In this document: positions 1,755 to 56,016 of the stretch, piece after piece
Numbering within the stretch: position 1 is the stretch's first letter
Layout of the letters: the number at the start of each line of letters is the position of its first letter
Origin: Kutzneria sp. 744
GTDB lineage: Bacteria; Actinomycetota; Actinomycetes; Mycobacteriales; Pseudonocardiaceae
NCBI RefSeq assembly: GCF_000568255.1
Contig: NZ_KK037166.1
Coordinates: 7,029,024-7,093,023 of the forward strand
DNA length: 64,000 nt
Direction of reading: 5' to 3'
The notes under the pieces: model-generated
Seen by the model: the letters and a program-made list of their open reading frames with translations, nothing else
Told to the model about the DNA's origin: nothing
Databases searched by the model: none
Program-made: the position numbers and the translations under genes

Positions 1755-2857
1755 CTCCCCTCACGGAGAACGATCCGCCCGGCCGGCGGCAGTGGGTGCG
1801 GCTGGACCGCCCCCTGCCGCTGGAGCGCGGAGGCGAGCTGCCCGCCGTCCAACTCGCCTATGAGACGTGGGGGGCTCCTGCCCCGGACCGGTCCAACGCC
1901 GTCCTCGTCCTGCACGCGCTGACCGGCGACAGCCATGTCGCCGGTCCCGCCGGGCCGGGGCATCCGACCGCCGGCTGGTGGGATTCCCTGGTGCAGCCCG
2001 GAGTTCTCGATCCGTCGCGGTACTTCGTAGTGGCGCCCAACGTGTTGGGCGGCTGCCGGGGGAGCACCGGGCCGTCCTCGGTCAGCCCCGACGGAAAGCC
2101 CTGGGGCAGCCGGTTTCCGTCGTTGACCGTACGAGATCAGGTCGCCGCCGAGGTGGCCCTGGCCGACGCGTTGGGCATCGACCGGTGGGCCGCCGTGATC
2201 GGCGGTTCGATGGGTGGGATGCGGGCGTTGGAGTGGGCGGCTTCCACGCCGGAGCGGGTGGAGTCGTTGCTGCTGCTGGCTTGTCCGGCGCAGTCCTCGG
2301 CCGACCAGATCGCGTGGACGTATCCGCAGCTTGAGGCCATTCGGTCCGATCCCGGGTGGCACGGCGGCGACTACTACGGTTGCGGAGAGGGGCCCACCCG
2401 CGGACTTGGCGTCGCAAGGCGGATCGCGCACATCACGTATCGGAGCGAGGCCGAGCTGTCGGCTCGGTTCGGCCGCGATTCGCAGGGCGACGGCCGCTTC
2501 GCCGTCGAGTCCTATTTGGACCATCATGCCGAGAAGCTGGTGCGGCGCTTCGATGCCGGCAGCTACGTCGTGCTGGCCGAGGCGATGAACTCCCACGACG
2601 TCGGTCGCGGGCGTGGTGGCGTGAAGGCCGCTTTAGGTCGTGTGACGGCCCGGACGGTCGTCGGCGGCGTGACCACGGACCGGCTGTATCCGTTGGCGCA
2701 GCAGCAGGAACTGGCCGCCGGCATTCCCGGCGCGGACGGCGTGCGGGTGATCGACTCGCCGTACGGGCACGACGCGTTTCTCATCGAGACCGAGCAGATC
2801 GCCGCGATGGTGCGGGAGTTGTTCACAGGTAGCGAGTCCCGTGTGGGTTCCCGCTGA
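1751..2857 (+). CDS. metX: homoserine O-acetyltransferase
   Basis: This alpha/beta-hydrolase fold enzyme (368 residues) acetylates homoserine to feed MetY. The nucleophile is S153 in VIGGSMGG; the downstream GGVTTDRLYP (Asp) and SPYGHDAFL (His) complete the triad, and HALTGDSHV and NVLGGCRGSTGPSS are family-typical. No ATG or good GTG lies at the expected start. CTG 1751 overlaps the metY stop as CTGA and has GAAGG seven bases upstream, so a rare CTG start is proposed; GTG 1796 is the alternative but would cut conserved N-terminal sequence. Its 3' end overlaps the convergent TIR-NTPase gene by 35 bases. Confidence 0.9.
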   Translation: MTPLTENDPPGRRQWVRLDRPLPLERGGELPAVQLAYETWGAPAPDRSNAVLVLHALTGDSHVAGPAGPGHPTAGWWDSLVQPGVLDPSRYFVVAPNVLGGCRGSTGPSSVSPDGKPWGSRFPSLTVRDQVAAEVALADALGIDRWAAVIGGSMGGMRALEWAASTPERVESLLLLACPAQSSADQIAWTYPQLEAIRSDPGWHGGDYYGCGEGPTRGLGVARRIAHITYRSEAELSARFGRDSQGDGRFAVESYLDHHAEKLVRRFDAGSYVVLAEAMNSHDVGRGRGGVKAALGRVTARTVVGGVTTDRLYPLAQQQELAAGIPGADGVRVIDSPYGHDAFLIETEQIAAMVRELFTGSESRVGSR

Positions 2858-4669
2858 TCCGGCTCAGGTCCCGGATCACCGCCAGCAGCGGTTCCCGCAG
2901 CGCGTCGAGGGCGTTGCGCAGTTCGGCGGTCGGATCCCAGGCCGTGTCGTCGAACTGCGTGCGGTCCTCGTAGCGCCGCAGCGCCGGGTGCCACTCCGAC
3001 AGGAACGGCCGCAGCACCTCCTCCATCAGGCGCTCCGCGACCTCACCGAAGCGCTGCGACGAATCGGGGCCGCATTCCCGCAGCTGCTCCCGGGTGAACG
3101 CGAAGATGCTGTGCAGGGAGGAGATCGCCTCCCGCAGGCCGCCGCCGCCCAGCGGCCGCACGGGAACCCGGTGCGCCAGCTCGACCTGGACCCGGAACGC
3201 CGCCGCCCGCTCGCGTTCGTCCACCGCGAAGTCGTCCCGCTCGCGGCGGCCGGCCAGCGCGGCCGCGCTGACCCGCTCGTGCCGCGCCGGATCGGGATCG
3301 CTGTGCCGATCACGTGTGCGACCACCGCCGGTACCTCCAACGCGCCTCCGCCGACCAGCCGCACCACAGACTGCCTGGCCAGCCGGTCGACCGCCAGACC
3401 GACCGGGCCAAGACCATCCAGAACGGGTAACGGCATCGGCTCCGGCGCGAACGCCGCCACCGCGCGCAGCACGTCAAGACCGGCGTCGCCGGCCGCGTCC
3501 ACCTCGGCCAGCAGCCGCTTCGCGGTCGCCTCCAACACCGGCCAGTCCCGGGAGAACAGCCGCCGCCGCACCGAGTCCAGGCCCGCCGACCGGGCCGAGC
3601 CGGCCAGGTCCAGCAGGGCTCCCGGGTGCCCGCCGACGGCGTCCACCAGCTTGTGCGCCGACTCGCGGTCGCCCGGGGCCAAGGTCTCGACCTGGTTCAG
3701 CACGAGCTTGATCGCTTGCGCCGCCGGCAGTTCCGGGACCGGCACGCCCGTGCCGAGCTCGGCGTAGCTGGCGTCGGTCGTGGTGAGCACGCTGGCGGCG
3801 GTGGGGTGTGGGGACAGCAGCCGGCGGACTTCGTCCAGTTCGAGCCCGGCCGGCACGCCGTCGACCACCCAGAGGCTGGGTTCCCGGCTCCGGTCCAGGG
3901 CCAAGGCCACCCGATCGGCGGCGTGACCATTTCCGTTGGCCCCTAAAGCTTCCGCGATGGCCGTCAGCTGCTCCGGCCACGGATCCCCGGCCGACAGCCA
4001 GAACACGCCGCCGGGGAAGGTCGCCCCGAACTGCCGCGCGTACTCCGCGACCAGGGAGGACGTGCCGATGCCGCCGACACCGTGCACCACGGCGACCGGC
4101 TCGCCGCCGCCTTCGGTCAACGTCGCCGATTGCGGGTGCAGGGCCGAGTGCAGCCGCCACAGCTCGGCCGTGCGACCGACGAACTTCGGCGGCGGCCGAT
4201 GGCCCGGGGCCGGCAGCGACAGCGGGACGCGGCCGTGGTCCACGGCGCCGATGGTCGTCGGCAGCTCGTCGACCTTGCGCGTGACGGCCTCGGTGAGATG
4301 GCGCAGCTCGGCCGACGGGCTCCAGAATCGGGCGTCCCTCAGCTCGATCGGCTCGATGTGCCCGGTGCCGCGCTCCGGATTGACCACCAGCACCCGCCGC
4401 AGCGGATCGCCTTCCCGTTGTCCGGCAAGGAAAGCCGTGATGAGCTCCTGCTGGCAGGCGCGGCGCGTGGGATAGGTCTGGGAGTAGTAGGCGAGCAGCA
4501 GTCGGGAGCGGCCCAGCTCGGCCAGGATGGTCCGGGACACCGAGTCGAACCGGTGCACGCCGACCTCGTCCTGGAACACCCGCAGCCCCCGGGCGCGCAG
4601 CTCCGCGGCCAGCGCCTCGGCGGGCGTGGTGTCCGACCGGCAGTAGCTCAGGAACACATCGTGGGCCAT
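2823..4669 (-). CDS. TIR domain-NTPase (STAND/NB-ARC-like) protein with C-terminal helical domain, frameshifted
   Basis: Starts at ATG 4669 with AAGGAGG nine bases upstream. Residues 1-135 form a TIR domain: DVFLSYCRSD, then RACQQEL with Glu75 at the usual catalytic position of TIR NADases. FVGRTAEL (about 163-170) opens an NTPase region; its P-loop reads GVGGIGTSS (197-205), with Thr203 in place of the Walker A lysine, and SLWVVDG (265-271) looks like a weak Walker B. After about residue 455 the frame is lost near 3295-3310; shifting by one base recovers the natural continuation, which encodes a C-terminal helical domain (VELAHRVPV...VLRPFLSEWHPAL). That domain is homologous to the small protein at 5657-6139. 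The role is inferred as an immune sensor/effector. The frameshift may be real, programmed, or a sequencing error. Confidence 0.75.
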
Positions 4670-4970
4670 CCGTCCCGGCCTCCTTCGGTTAACTCCGATG
4701 GGGGACAGTGTCGAGCCTGACGGACGGGTGAATCGCAAGCCACCTGCTTGCCATAATTCACGCCGTAGCGCTACTCGGCGTGACGGATCATGGCATGCCG
4801 TCACGGTGGGTCGTCGACCTGCTGTCGGCAGTCCTCCACCGTTCGCCGGGGCCGGATCACTGTATGTCGGCTTTCCCTCTTATACGGGATTCGGCTGCGG
4901 TGCGTGACTATGGGCAATGCACTTGCACAGGGGCTACGCTCCCGCACTTGACACCGTCAGGGATGGGTGT
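4670..4970. promoter_or_regulatory. divergent promoter region of the TIR/SLATT module
   Basis: This gene-free stretch of about 300 bases lies between the TIR-NTPase and SLATT-like starts and is visibly less GC-rich than the flanks. An inverted repeat GTGACGG (4780-4786) / CCGTCAC (4798-4804) sits near its middle and could be an operator serving both directions. TTGACA at 4948-4953 has no matching -10 box. No small ORF in it looks real. Confidence 0.4.
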
Positions 4971-5660
4971 GTGGTGATAGACCCGTGGGTTGTGGGGCTT
5001 TGTGGCGTGACCGTTCTGGCTATATCCAGTGCGGTCGCGATTGCGGCCTACATGCGACCGAAATTTACCGTCGCAACGGCCGGCGGCGGCGCGGACGGAC
5101 CGTTCGCGGACGCCGACCTGATCGGTCCGGAACTGCGCGACTGGGCCGCCGCCCACTATCGGCGGACCGTGCCCGTGCTGCGGGTCTGGCAGCGCCGGGC
5201 CTGGCTGTACGGCGCGGCCCACTTCTATGCCGTCGGCTGGACCGTGCTGATCTCGCTGTCGCTGCCGTTCCTGATTCCGTACGTGACCGACGGCAACGGC
5301 TCGCGGCTGCTCGTGCAGGCCCTGTCCGTGTTCGGCGCGGTGGTGTTCGGCCTGCACAGGACCTTCAAGGCCGAGGAGAACTACGGCAAGTACCGCCTGC
5401 ACGAGTCCAGCGTCTACACCCTGGTCCGCAAGCTCGTCGACGACCCCGACCAGCTCGGCGCCTCCGACGCCGAGCGCCGTCGCCGCTACCTCGCGGAGAT
5501 CGAGCGGATCAGGGAACGCGCCCGCAACGACGAGATCAACAATCTGCCCAGTCCGTCCTCTCCGCCCCGCACCGGCCCGGTCACGCCCATTCCCGAGCAA
5601 CGGGTTGACGGTTATCGATCGGCCGCGCACGGGCCTTTGAGTGGAGGAGCTTCTCCGTGA
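4971..5660 (+). CDS. SLATT-like (DUF4231-type) multi-pass membrane protein, putative pore-forming effector
   Basis: About 229 residues from GTG 4971 (AGGGA a few bases upstream); an ATG at 4917 would add 18 residues and has no clear ribosome site. There is an N-terminal hydrophobic helix (VVGLCGVTVLAISSAVAIAA), then, after WQRRAWLYGAA, a hydrophobic pair (FYAVGWTVLISLSLPFLIPY; LVQALSVFGAVVFGL). This is followed by the charged stretch FKAEENYGKYRLHESSVYTL and a basic helix, an arrangement typical of SLATT domains. Such proteins are predicted membrane effectors of nucleotide-dependent or NTPase-dependent immune systems. Its stop overlaps the next gene (GTGA), indicating coupling. The tail is low-complexity Ser/Pro. 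The assignment rests on layout and motif likeness. Confidence 0.65.
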   Translation: MVIDPWVVGLCGVTVLAISSAVAIAAYMRPKFTVATAGGGADGPFADADLIGPELRDWAAAHYRRTVPVLRVWQRRAWLYGAAHFYAVGWTVLISLSLPFLIPYVTDGNGSRLLVQALSVFGAVVFGLHRTFKAEENYGKYRLHESSVYTLVRKLVDDPDQLGASDAERRRRYLAEIERIRERARNDEINNLPSPSSPPRTGPVTPIPEQRVDGYRSAAHGPLSGGASP

Positions 5661-6139
5661 GTCAGCGAAGCCGGGTGAGCGGCGTGTGGACGCCATCACC
5701 GAGAGAACGAGAGGCTGCGTGGGAGCTGTATGTCGAGCTCGCCACCAGGATTACGACCGTGGAACAAAAACCGGGGGCCGGAATCGTGAGGGAGGAACTG
5801 AACAGCATTTACTCGCTCTTCGCCTGCACCCGGGACATCCTGCGCAAGTACGGTCCCGAGCTCGCCCCGCGCGGCCGCGCCGGCGGCGTCACCTTCGCCG
5901 GCATCGCCGTGGAGATGGTCAACACCGTGCTCCGCCCGCTGCTGACCAAGTGGCACCCCGCCCTGGCCGAGTGGGAGGCCGCCCGCCTGCCCGGCGACAG
6001 CGTCGTCATGCACGAGCGCGCCTGGGAGCAGGTGGACGTGCTGCGTGCCGAGGTAGCCGACACCCGCCGGGTCCTGCTGGAGCTGGCCGCCGACCTCCAC
6101 GACGCCATGCAGATCGAGCCCTTGATCGGCGGGACGTGA
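5657..6139 (+). CDS. small helical protein homologous to the C-terminal domain of the TIR-NTPase
   Basis: 160 residues from GTG 5657, with GGAGGAG upstream at 5642-5648 and overlapping the SLATT-like stop. It is predicted all-helical and soluble, with no signal or membrane segment. Its core (VELATR, REELNSIYSLFACTRDILR, VLRPLLTKWHPALAEWE) aligns by eye with the last 130 residues of the TIR-NTPase across the frameshift (VELAHR, REAISSLHSIFAFTREQLR, VLRPFLSEWHPALRRYE). I do not recognise the domain. A shared domain on both sides of a divergent immune-like module suggests an adaptor or pairing surface joining sensor and membrane effector; that is inference. Confidence 0.7.
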   Translation: MSQRSRVSGVWTPSPREREAAWELYVELATRITTVEQKPGAGIVREELNSIYSLFACTRDILRKYGPELAPRGRAGGVTFAGIAVEMVNTVLRPLLTKWHPALAEWEAARLPGDSVVMHERAWEQVDVLRAEVADTRRVLLELAADLHDAMQIEPLIGGT

Positions 6140-52052: not shown

Positions 52053-52616
52053 ATGACGCTGTTGCAGGTCATGGCCGACGGCGACCGCGACGAGGTGTTG
52101 CTGCGCACCACCGACCTCGCGACCATCGCCGCCGAGCTGGCGCCGTTCGACATCACCCTGGAGCAGTGGGACACCGTCGAGCTGTCCGACAGCGCCGGGC
52201 AGGACGAGGTCCTGGAGGCGTACAGGGCGGACGTGGAGAAGGTGTCCAAGGAGGGCGACTTCCGGCTGGTCGACGTCGTCCGGATGAAGCCGTCGGACGA
52301 CCCGGAGTGGAAGGCGTTGGCCAAGGGCGCCAGGGAGAAGTTCCTCAACGAGCACACCCACGACGAGGACGAGGTCCGCTTTTTCGTCGAGGGCAAGGGC
52401 TGCTTCTACCTGCACCTGGACGGCAAGGTGTACGCCGTGGTGTGCGAGCGCGGCGACCTGATGTCGGTGCCGGCCGGCACCACGCACTGGTTCGACATGG
52501 GCTCGAACCCGGAGTTCTGCGCCATCCGGTTCTTCCAGGAGGAGGACGGCTGGGTCGCCGGCTTCACCGGTGACGGCATCTCCACGCGCATGCCGACCCT
52601 GGACGAGCTGGTGTGA
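52053..52616 (+). CDS. mtnD: acireductone dioxygenase
   Basis: 187 residues from ATG 52053 with AGGAGA upstream. Cupin fold with metal ligands H101, H103 and E107 in HTHDEDEVRFF and H145 in TTHWFDMG. It converts the acireductone to the keto acid of methionine and formate (Fe form) or to a CO-producing off-pathway route (Ni form). Third step from the right in the salvage operon mtnAB-mtnD-mtnC. Its stop overlaps the mtnC start (GTGTGA). Confidence 0.93.
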   Translation: MTLLQVMADGDRDEVLLRTTDLATIAAELAPFDITLEQWDTVELSDSAGQDEVLEAYRADVEKVSKEGDFRLVDVVRMKPSDDPEWKALAKGAREKFLNEHTHDEDEVRFFVEGKGCFYLHLDGKVYAVVCERGDLMSVPAGTTHWFDMGSNPEFCAIRFFQEEDGWVAGFTGDGISTRMPTLDELV

Positions 52617-53122
52617 TCGTCACCGACATCGAGGGCACCACCAGCTCCATCGCCCACGTGCACGACGTGCTGTTCCCGTACTCGCGGGCGCGCATCTCCT
52701 CGTGGGTGCGGCGCCCCGAGGCGGCGGCCGTCGTGCGTGAGGTGGCGGCCGACCCGGACGAGGCGGCCTCCGTGCTGGTCGGGTGGATCGACGCCGACGT
52801 CAAGGCCACGCCGCTGAAGACGTTGCAGGGCTTGATCTGGGCCGAGGGTTACGCGTCGGGGGAGCTCACCGCGCACGTGTACGACGACGTGCCGCCGGTG
52901 CTCGCGCGGTGGTCGGCGGCCGGGGTGCCGGTGTACGTGTACTCGTCGGGATCCGAGCTGGCGCAACGGTTGTGGTTCCGGCACACCCAGCACGGGGACC
53001 TGTTGGGGCACTTCGCCGGGCACTTCGACACCGTGACCGCCGGCCCGAAGCGCGAAGTCGCTTCGTACGAGGCGATCGCCGGCAAGATCGGCGTCGCGCC
53101 GGGGGAGCTGACGTTCCTGTCT
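52613..53122 (+). pseudogene. mtnC: enolase-phosphatase E1, truncated 3' end
   Basis: HAD-family enzyme with DIEGTTSSIAHVH (phosphatase Asp loop) near the start at GTG 52613 and YVYSSGSELAQRLWF after it. The sequence follows the family up to LTFLS, then stops at SGSC: the HAD motif IV Asp that follows in the family (FLSD) and about 60 residues are missing. The break coincides with the start of the about-50% GC tract at 53123. The gene would be inactive as given; the break may be artefact. Last of the mtn operon. Confidence 0.8.
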
Positions 53123-53841
53123 GGCTCCTGTTAGGCCGAGTTGTGCCCTTTTCGATTTCACCATATAGGAATAAGACCCACAGCTACGCATCAAGGCACG
53201 TTCTTAGATACTCCTAGCTTTGTCTCAGAGATTAAGCCTTTTTAGGAGCAACGCCAACCCGAGCGGGCGTTGACTTATGTCGAGATGTTCGACTGAAGGT
53301 TCGAATCCCTGTGATATAAGTTGAGTGATACGCGGGCCGGACTCAGACAATTAGCGTCGAGGTGAAATAAGTAAATCTCCAACCGTTTGTAAGGCATTAC
53401 TGGCGCCAGATGCCGTATGGCCGCGCAGACGCTATCGCAAGGTGAGAGCCTTGAAACGTGCCGCGCCCGCATCACCAGGCGTGCGGAGACTTTAAAGTCG
53501 TTCTTGTGTGGAAAATCTGACTTGCAGTTCATTGAAGATGGGTAGCACCTAGCGTCCAGTGCTGTTATCCGCTGTATCAGCGGAAGGCGATTCTCTCTAT
53601 CAGGGCACTCTACTCGACCGGAGCCCGCCACGCAGACGCGATGGTAACGCTAGAGTTGATGATAGTGGCGTCTGCCCTCCGTCTAAGATTTCGTCTCAGT
53701 GCAGACTAAGTGGCATATAGATTGCCACCCTTAGGTAAACTCGGAAGCGCGCCCGTTGGCAAAACCGGCGTAACTGGCGATATCGTCCGCATTGCGATGA
53801 GTCACGCTCTCCGGCAGTGCGAGTTACAGGTTCGGGCAGCG
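53123..53841. other. anomalous about-50% GC tract truncating mtnC
   Basis: About 719 bases of even base composition, no long ORF, no inverted ends, no target duplication. It contains one T-loop-like 11-mer (GGTTCGAATCC, 53299-53309), but the stem does not pair. It ends abruptly at the stop of the fadB gene. Likely non-native fill or chimera. Confidence 0.6.
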
Positions 53842-56016
53842 TTATTCGAAGGTCTCGCCGGCGGCGGCCTTCTTGCGCAGCAGCTCCGGCGGGGCGAACC
53901 GGTCGCCGTAGCGCTGGGCCAGCTCCTCGGCCCGGGCGACGAAGCCGTTCAGGCCGCCCTCGTAGCCGTTGATGTACTGGAGCACGCCGCCGGTCCAGGC
54001 CGGGAAGCCGATGCCGAAGATGGAGCCGATGTTGGCGTCGGCGACGGCGGTGATCACGCCCTCCTCGACGCACTTCACCGTCTCGATGGCCTCGGCGAAC
54101 AGCATGCGCTCCTGCATGTCCTTGAAGGGAATGTCATCGCCTTCACGGATGATGCCGGGCTTGCCGAAGTTCTCGACCAGACCCGACCACAGGCCGGCGC
54201 GCTTGCCGTCGGCGTAGTCGTAGAAGCCCTTGCCGTAGGCGCGGCCGCCGCGGTCGAAGTCCACCACCATGCGGTCGATGACCTGCTCGGCCGGGTGTGA
54301 CACCCACGTGCCGCCGGCCGCCTCCACCGCCTTGCGGGACTCGTCGCGGATCTTGCGCGGCAGGGTCAGCGTCAGCTCGTCCATCAGCGACAGCACCGGG
54401 GCCGGGTAGCCGGCCTGCATGCTGGCCTGCTCGATGGACGGAGCCGGCAGGCCCTCGCCGAGCATGGCCACGCCCTCGTTGATGAACGTGCCGATGACGC
54501 GGCTGGTGAAGAAGCCGCGGCTGTCGTTGACCACGATCGGCGTCTTCTTCAGCTGCAGCACCACGTCGAACGCCTTGGCCAGGGCCTCGTCGCTCGTGTT
54601 GGCGCCGCGGATGATCTCCACCAGCGGCATCTTGTCCACCGGCGAGAAGAAGTGCAGGCCCACGAAGTCGGCCTGCCGCTTGACGCCCTCGGCCAGGCCG
54701 GTGATCGGCAGCGTGGAGGTGTTGGAGCACAGCAGGGCGTCCGGCTCGACGACGTTCTCGATCTCGGCGAACACCTTGTGCTTGAGCTCGGTGTTCTCGA
54801 AGACCGCCTCGATCACCAGGTCGCAGCCGGCCAGGTCGGCGGCGTCCGCGGTGGGCGTGATGCGGGCCAGGATCTCGTCCCGCTTCTCCTGGGTCATCTT
54901 GCCGCGGCTGATCGCCTTGTCCAGCAGGCCGACCGAGTAGTTCTTGCCCTTCTCCGCCGCCTCCGCGGAGACGTCCTTGAGCACGACCTGCATGCCCGAG
55001 CGGGCCGCGGAGTAGGCGATGCCCGCGCCCATCATGCCGGCGCCCAGCACGGCGACCTTGCGGGCCGTGTACTGCGGCACGCCCTGCGGGCGGCTGCCGC
55101 CCTTGTTGATCGTCTGGAGGTCGAAGAAGAACGCCTTGATCATGTTCTTCGAGACCTGGCCGGCCGACAGCTGGAGCATGTAGCGGGACTCGATGCGCAG
55201 GGCCGACTCGAAGTCGACCTGGCTGCCCTCGACCGCGGCCGACAGGATCGCCTTCGGCGCCGGCATCGGCGCGCCCTTGAGCTGCTTGCGCAGGTTGGCC
55301 GGGAAGGCCGGCAGGTTGGCCGCGAACTTCGGCACCGACGGCGTGCCGCCGGGAATCCGGTAGCCCTTGACGTCCCACGGCTGCACGGCGTCCGGGTTGT
55401 CCTTGATCCACTGCTTGGCCCGGGCGACCATCTCCTCCGGCGTCGCCACGATCTCGTCGACGATGCCGGTCTCCTTGGCCGCTGCCGGGGCCAACTGCTG
55501 GCCCTGCAACAGCAGCTTCAGCAGCGCGTCGGCGATGCCGAGCATGCGGACCGTGCGCACCACGCCCCCCGCGCCGGGCAGCAGGCCCAGCGTCACCTCG
55601 GGGAAACCGAAGCGGGACTTGGGGTTGTCCAGCGCCACCCGGTGGTGGCAGGACAGCGCGATCTCCAGGCCGCCGCCCAGCGCCGAGCCGTTCAGCGCCG
55701 CCACGACCGGCCGGCCGAGCGTCTCCAGGCCGCGCAGGGCGGCCTTGGTGCTGGTCAGCGTGGCCATGAAGGTGTCGCCGTCGGCCGGCGTCACGCGGCG
55801 CAGGTCGTTCAGGTCGCCGCCGGCGAAGAAGGTCTTCTTGGCCGAGGCCACCACCACGCCCGTGATGTCGTCACGCTCGCGGCGCAGCCGCTCCACGACC
55901 TTGGTGACCGCCGCCGTGAACTCCGGGTTCATGGTGTTGGCCGACTGGCCCGGCGCGTCCATCGTCAGCGTGACGATGCCGTCAGAGTCCTTGTCCCACT
56001 GGAAGTACTCGCTCAT
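53842..56016 (-). CDS. fadB: fatty-acid oxidation complex: enoyl-CoA hydratase / 3-hydroxyacyl-CoA dehydrogenase
   Basis: 724 residues from ATG 56016. N-terminal crotonase domain ([29 protein letters not shown] with the catalytic Glu in ETVKCVEE-type positions), then NAD-binding 3-hydroxyacyl-CoA dehydrogenase ([51 protein letters not shown]). It carries out the two middle steps of beta-oxidation. Forms an operon with the thiolase 11 bases upstream in transcription. Its C-terminus is intact to ...AAAGETFE at the tract edge. Confidence 0.9.

Follow-up and report, generated by a model that had tools for sequence, protein, structure and literature searches.

A TIR-linked four-helix domain and a candidate conflict module that carries it in Kutzneria

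Positions 2823 to 6139 of a 64,000-nucleotide stretch of the Kutzneria sp. 744 genome (contig NZ_KK037166.1, positions 7,029,024 to 7,093,023; the whole stretch is called the window below) hold a gene for a TIR-NTPase and, divergent from it, a two-gene unit that encodes a SLATT-like membrane protein and a small helical protein. The small protein carries a domain that recurs at the C-terminus of the TIR-NTPase and that is linked with TIR genes across phyla. The source genome is a single contig of 11.6 Mb, and among named organisms Kutzneria come closest to it (89% for the small protein).

The locus and its shared domain

All three genes are present and arranged as a first-pass annotation of the DNA had described them (Table 1), and the two genes on the plus strand overlap by 4 bases. 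The homology that the same annotation had claimed between the small protein and the C-terminal end of the TIR-NTPase was borne out: a search of the source genome related the two at 1.3e-14 and 40% identity, one hidden Markov model (HMM) found both, and both were placed in one tree. Nine positions (A, E, R, G, S, R, P, W and L) are invariant in the domain alignments A1 (18 rows) and A3 (25 rows). The structural model of the small protein consists of four long helices (predicted template modelling score, pTM, 0.80) with generic helical structural neighbours only, and on this model the shared domain is predicted to be a four-helix bundle.

Table 1. Coordinates of the features of the three-gene locus, as positions in the window
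Feature	Position	Strand	Remarks
TIR-NTPase-helical-domain gene	2823..4669	-	probable start ATG 4669 behind AAGGAGG; two pieces in the window, frame change at about 3270-3310
TIR domain	4331..4660	-	TIR_2 5.7e-13; the Glu in 'CQQE' shares a column with the RUN1 Glu replaced by Ala in the 7s2z chain
STAND/AP-ATPase-like NTPase region	3692..4186	-	AAA_16 3e-5 and NF040586 7.4e-21, both below cut-off; no Lys in Walker A (GVGGIGTSSL)
C-terminal copy of the four-helix (TIR-associated) domain	2826..3269	-	own HMM 2.7e-43, of which this sequence is itself one row; frame differs from that of the TIR-NTPase piece
SLATT-like membrane protein	4917..5660	+	hydrophobic stretches at amino acids 16-48, 100-124 and 128-147
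Stand-alone four-helix (TIR-associated) domain protein	5657..6139	+	GTG start; model mean pLDDT (predicted local distance difference test) 85.5
Inverted repeat, leader of the TIR-NTPase gene	4728..4761	-	alignment of six Kutzneria; predicted hairpin, fold of 4670-4765, z -2.05

Scanned against Pfam up to E 0.1, 18 members of the domain matched eight families, the best at 0.0031 in one member and none of them an effector-associated domain (EAD), a result that still allows remote homology. NCBIfam and PADLOC scans of the same 18 members gave one weak, unrelated match each, and the A3 alignment had no match among solved sequences. No description of the four-helix domain was found in the accessible portions of the literature under CC0, CC BY and CC BY-SA licences, preprints lying outside this scope, and the domain is apparently unnamed and undescribed.

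The identity of the TIR-NTPase, as first proposed, holds for its TIR part, which scores above the curated TIR_2 cut-off (49.9 bits against 28). The Glu to which attention had been drawn stands in the RUN1 Glu column, which we take to be that of the catalytic residue, and is kept in 20 of 20 aligned rows; the protein of the window is predicted to cleave NAD+. The NTPase part is another matter, since its matches fall below the curated cut-offs both in the window (AAA_16, 25 bits against 32.6; NF040586, 74.3 against 300) and in relatives (AAA_16, 28.1 against 32.6 in locus L050; NB-ARC, 16.9 against 23.5 in L135), and the Walker A motif of the window has lost its Lys. Of 20 aligned rows, 14 have K at that position, and the six from Kutzneria have T or A. 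In this genus the NTPase probably serves as a scaffold rather than as an ATP switch.

That the shared domain belongs to the TIR-NTPase gene as its C-terminus is true of five sister Kutzneria (L048, L050, L051, L052 and L053), in which TIR, NTPase and C-terminal domain form one open frame of 615–652 amino acids from stop to stop, but in the window the domain is out of frame with the TIR-NTPase open reading frame (ORF; 3026–4804). Because constraint on the C-terminal domain persists beyond the break (dN, the nonsynonymous rate, 0.003 and dS, the synonymous rate, 0.308 against L050), the break is either a very recent event or a sequence error. A programmed frameshift was considered and is disfavoured by the single open frame of the five sister genomes. 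In a tree that omits L010, L013, L014 and copies under about 100 amino acids, the C-terminal copies of 19 intact TIR-NTPases and that of the window form one clade (support 100/99). A separate second copy accompanies the fused one in 19 of 20 TIR-NTPase loci; L153 has none, and the separate copy of L056 contains one internal stop.

Linkage of the domain with TIR genes

Seventy-five sources, the window included, were scanned, and 74 of them carry the domain (L169 does not); with two duplicates removed (L132 and L168, which repeat L010 and L011), 72 loci were counted, and rows L004 to L007, which are the same loci as L048, L052, L053 and L049, were likewise dropped. The shared domain might have turned out to lie mostly away from TIR genes; instead, a TIR domain is found within 3 kb of it in 59 of the 72 loci and within 1.5 kb in 57, and when the Kutzneria loci are set aside the count within 3 kb is 53 of 66. 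In a control set of loci around SLATT_1 genes (1.5 kb flanks), drawn partly from the same genomes and with five of the 30 below the SLATT_1 cut-off, TIR was present in 3 of 30. The TIR HMMs had been built by iteration on these same loci, and hence the linkage was cross-checked with the curated Pfam model TIR_2. Of 44 genomes that carry the domain (44 of the 49 in five surveys, four centres and one partial match being left out), at least 33 have a match to this model no further than 3 kb from the domain, against a chance expectation of about 0.4% for a random place, given 197 TIR_2 matches in about 350 Mb of these genomes.

The domain spans several bacterial phyla and archaeal metagenome-assembled genomes (MAGs), with the caution that several holders are MAGs whose contigs may be misassigned. 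Counted by matches at E 1e-5, in surveys whose centre genomes carry the domain by choice, it occurs in 11 of 249 genomes of the window's own family, six of these being Kutzneria; in 24 of 200 genomes of the family of a Streptomyces genome; and in 5 of 299, 3 of 119 and 6 of 119 genomes of the phyla of a Burkholderiaceae, a Terriglobia and an anammox MAG, respectively. Further holders are archaeal (MAG), Lachnospiraceae and Syntrophaceae records, cyanobacterial and proteobacterial plasmids, and two viral contigs, the latter found with A1. The domain protein of L021 had no match among phage records but matched 11 plasmid records, nine of which were analysed; two more plasmid searches brought in no new genus. 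A TIR domain lies within 3 kb in seven of the nine plasmid loci (at 4.3 kb in L070, absent in L071) and in both viral-contig loci.

The TIR partners of the domain vary. Pfam assigns ThsB_TIR to those of L021 (1.7e-19), L163 (1e-19), L073 (4.9e-18) and L076 (2.3e-19); others join TIR to TPR (L142), WD40 (L009), SLOG cluster2 (L157, L162) or pentapeptide repeats (L164), and one is annotated as GUN4 (L067). The main rival to an adaptor function draws on this variety. It holds that TIR and helical protein are a toxin-antitoxin-like pair, in which the TIR protein would be a latent toxin, the helical partner its dedicated inhibitor, removed by a phage product, the fused copy a docking seat and the SLATT-like protein a passenger. 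The partner is kept while TIR architecture varies, and in L008, L021, L022, L163, L075 and L076 the domain gene comes immediately after a short TIR gene, as in toxin-antitoxin operons, with ThsB_TIR in L021, L163 and L076. However, the presence of the domain in patatin proteins and behind transmembrane segments fits an adaptor better than a one-to-one antitoxin, as do the two stand-alone copies that stand beside the fused one in L049, L054 and L055, and we consider inhibition by the helical partner unlikely.

The links with membranes and lipases are as follows. In a simple hydropathy scan, one or two hydrophobic segments directly precede the domain in 12 of the 76 copies that are not far C-terminal, ten of the 12 being in actinobacteria; the count uses stop-to-stop ORFs, the starts of some of which are unsure, and the annotated start of L072 omits the first hydrophobic segment. 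Proteins of L068, L069 and L074 combine the domain with a patatin domain behind it, and the patatin match of two of the three exceeds the Patatin cut-off (L068 is just below). The repeated association with membrane segments, together with the predicted four-helix bundle, would also suit a reading in which the helical protein is itself the membrane-acting executioner, a four-helix killer domain comparable to HeLo, RPW8 or MLKL, and the TIR protein its switch; we regard this as very unlikely.

On a Calothrix plasmid (L067), 12 kb contain the domain twice and six TIR domain matches, and on a Streptomyces longwoodensis plasmid (L070) an annotated IS5 family transposase (3652–4469) separates the TIR gene from the domain gene.

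The SLATT-like membrane protein and the Kutzneria setting

The description of the membrane protein as SLATT-like survives in a qualified form. The protein stays below the cut-offs of NF033634 (SLATT_1; 4e-4, 20.3 bits, cut-off 41) and DUF4231 (E 0.24, 12.3 bits, cut-off 24.7), and a curated SLATT_1 search at E 1e-5 picked up two other places in the source genome but missed this protein. A SLATT protein should show a hairpin of two transmembrane segments with a helix behind it, in register with a SLATT profile. Profile-profile comparison (hhalign) with a SLATT profile of 25 NF033634 matches from the family, on the other hand, gave 62–74% probability for the six of six Kutzneria proteins (E 3e-5 to 8e-5 over 74–102 columns), consistent with a remote relation, as against at most 5.6% for 18 other membrane pieces of the window and at most 1.2% for 30 shuffles. 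The protein is likely a remote relative of SLATT, not a member by the curated model, and it may open the membrane.

The pairing of the SLATT-like gene with the four-helix domain was seen in Kutzneria only, at one syntenic place. A protein remotely related to the SLATT-like one, from another genus of the family (L169, 2.2e-11), was tried as support for the pairing and rejected: its 10.2 kb contain no match to the domain or to TIR, and its protein scored 1.5% in the SLATT profile comparison. Run on the domain loci, the SLATT_1 HMM listed only L167 (0.047, a frame of 61 amino acids) and L143 (1.4); the same HMM missed the Kutzneria proteins, and distant SLATTs may therefore still be present in domain loci. 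Among the SLATT_1 control loci, a TIR domain stands beside the SLATT_1 gene in L170, L173 and L177, a possible TIR-SLATT pairing.

The three genes co-occur within the genus, but no co-occurrence was found beyond it in the family and class genomes and the other domain loci searched. Six of the seven Kutzneria genomes of the family search, the window's own included, carry the domain, the same six carry the SLATT-like gene, and the three-gene layout is identical in all of them. In the five sister loci the flanks are kept too, with metY- and metX-like genes on one side and a NiCoT-like gene and two more on the other (names read from the sequences, without family search), apart from one flanking gene unmatched in L053. 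Compared with L050, the dN/dS of the window is 0.16 for the SLATT-like gene, 0.17 for the small gene, 0.11 for the TIR-NTPase and 0.011 for its C-terminal domain; compared with L053, the most distant sister, it is 0.25, 0.34 and 0.36 for the first three. The genes of the locus are under purifying selection.

Such selection, the same place in six species and in six of seven genomes of the genus, and the loss of the Walker A Lys would suit a housekeeping or developmental regulator of Kutzneria that is kept vertically, whose NTPase probably does without ATP and whose role is not defence. Against such a regulator stand the patchy occurrence of the domain beyond Kutzneria and its proximity to TIR in most of the plasmid loci and in both viral contigs, and we judge it quite unlikely.

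The leader of the TIR-NTPase gene is largely conserved among Kutzneria around the inverted repeat, less so in L053. Because the preceding frame is not kept in L048 and L053, a later GTG, at 4971 or 4974 instead of 4917, may be the true start of the SLATT-like gene. A block at 4931–4954 that ends in TTGACAC, 5′ of the SLATT-like gene, is conserved in the six aligned Kutzneria and is a possible promoter element. No Rfam family reaches its gathering score in the window, and no tRNA was found there. Elsewhere in it, a HAD-family ORF (52613–53134; PF00702, 3.4e-6) seems cut short before a stretch of low GC content (53001–54000, 0.579), and the ORF beside it is presumably acireductone-dioxygenase-like.

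A candidate adaptor and its relation to known systems

We read the locus as a TIR-based conflict module, probably anti-phage, that is held by a four-helix effector-associated adaptor domain linking the TIR protein to a membrane output, and we give this reading slightly less than an even chance (about 0.48). The domain looks like an effector-associated adaptor for TIR systems, and the membrane protein may be a second output of the module in Kutzneria. The two copies of the domain, that of the small protein and that at the C-terminus of the TIR-NTPase, would touch, directly or via a shared ligand, and this contact would most likely keep the TIR protein complexed at the membrane, while translation of the SLATT-like and small genes would be coupled. 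Upon a trigger, presumably from phage, the TIR domains would come together, cleave NAD+ and perhaps produce a nucleotide signal, whereupon the SLATT-like protein would open the membrane. In a wider form of the proposal, the four-helix domain would be a general TIR partner by which varying TIR architectures are brought to varying membrane-acting outputs (SLATT-like proteins, transmembrane hairpins, patatin lipases), one trigger leading to both NAD loss and membrane damage; we find this extension possible but doubtful.

Several observations weigh against an adaptor-held conflict module with a membrane output. Thirteen of the 72 loci have no TIR within 3 kb, five of which (L017, L020, L137, L148, L155) are within 1.6 kb of a sequence end; the TIR of L137 lies at 3.25 kb and that of L070 beyond the insertion sequence. 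The domain is rare in an even sample of the phylum (2 of 396 genomes, the window's own included), and 64 of the 76 non-C-terminal copies have no transmembrane segment before them. Relatives of the membrane protein were found in only 7 of 249 genomes of the family (six Kutzneria and the weak match of L169) and in 1 of 241 genomes of the class, that one being the window's own, and a Kutzneria-type profile of the protein found nothing in other domain loci. Membership in SLATT is remote, the curated cut-off is not reached, and a plain HMM of 25 SLATT_1 matches, run at E 10, listed no Kutzneria membrane protein. Moreover, the six Kutzneria share one syntenic position for the locus, which does not resemble a mobile defence island in this, and the missing Walker A Lys might also be a sign of decay.

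The kind of system is already known, from the EAD principle and from TIR-SLATT neighbourhoods, and what is apparently undescribed is the domain. In the accessible parts of the papers on EAD systems (Kaur et al. 2020, 2021; PMC7159879, PMC8195603), a small, mostly helical domain is common to a core protein and its neighbour and linked with changing effectors, TIR among them, a principle that is in print as a prediction. The domain described here, its linkage with TIR, its shared copies and its changing effectors fit this principle, and the kind is therefore known. The likeness extends to the occurrence of the same domain in the TIR-NTPase core and, in 19 of 20 loci, in a neighbour, and to its presence in patatin effector proteins. 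The present system differs in that vWA, MoxR and VMAP were not noticed (no profile search for them was made), in that the 18 members of A1 have no convincing Pfam match, and in that most copies of the domain form a small protein of their own.

A pairing of TIR and SLATT genes has been put forward as a prediction for phages of Firmicutes, in which SLATT would be a membrane effector regulated by derivatives of ADP-ribose (PMC9503650, accessible sections). Those pairs and the Kutzneria locus are alike in having TIR and a SLATT-type protein in one neighbourhood, but here the TIR protein is a TIR-NTPase, a third, domain-sharing protein is present and SLATT is matched only remotely. The resemblance to Thoeris lies in the several TIR partners of the domain that match the TIR domain of ThsB (ThsB_TIR). 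In contrast, the TIR domain of the window is TIR_2; the PADLOC ThsB models reach only 0.047–0.073 and the NCBIfam model of Thoeris type III only 1.8e-4 (20.5 bits against 220) with the window TIR, and no search for a ThsA-type effector was made.

The occurrence of the domain beside TIR genes across phyla offers a way to find whole TIR systems and raises the question of whether the partner silences, assembles or relays the output of TIR. The Kutzneria variant, in which a membrane protein is added and the Walker A Lys is lost, would let the two outputs of one module be tested apart. If the wider proposal of a general TIR partner is true, the domain would be part of a prokaryotic counterpart of adaptor-coupled TIR cell death.

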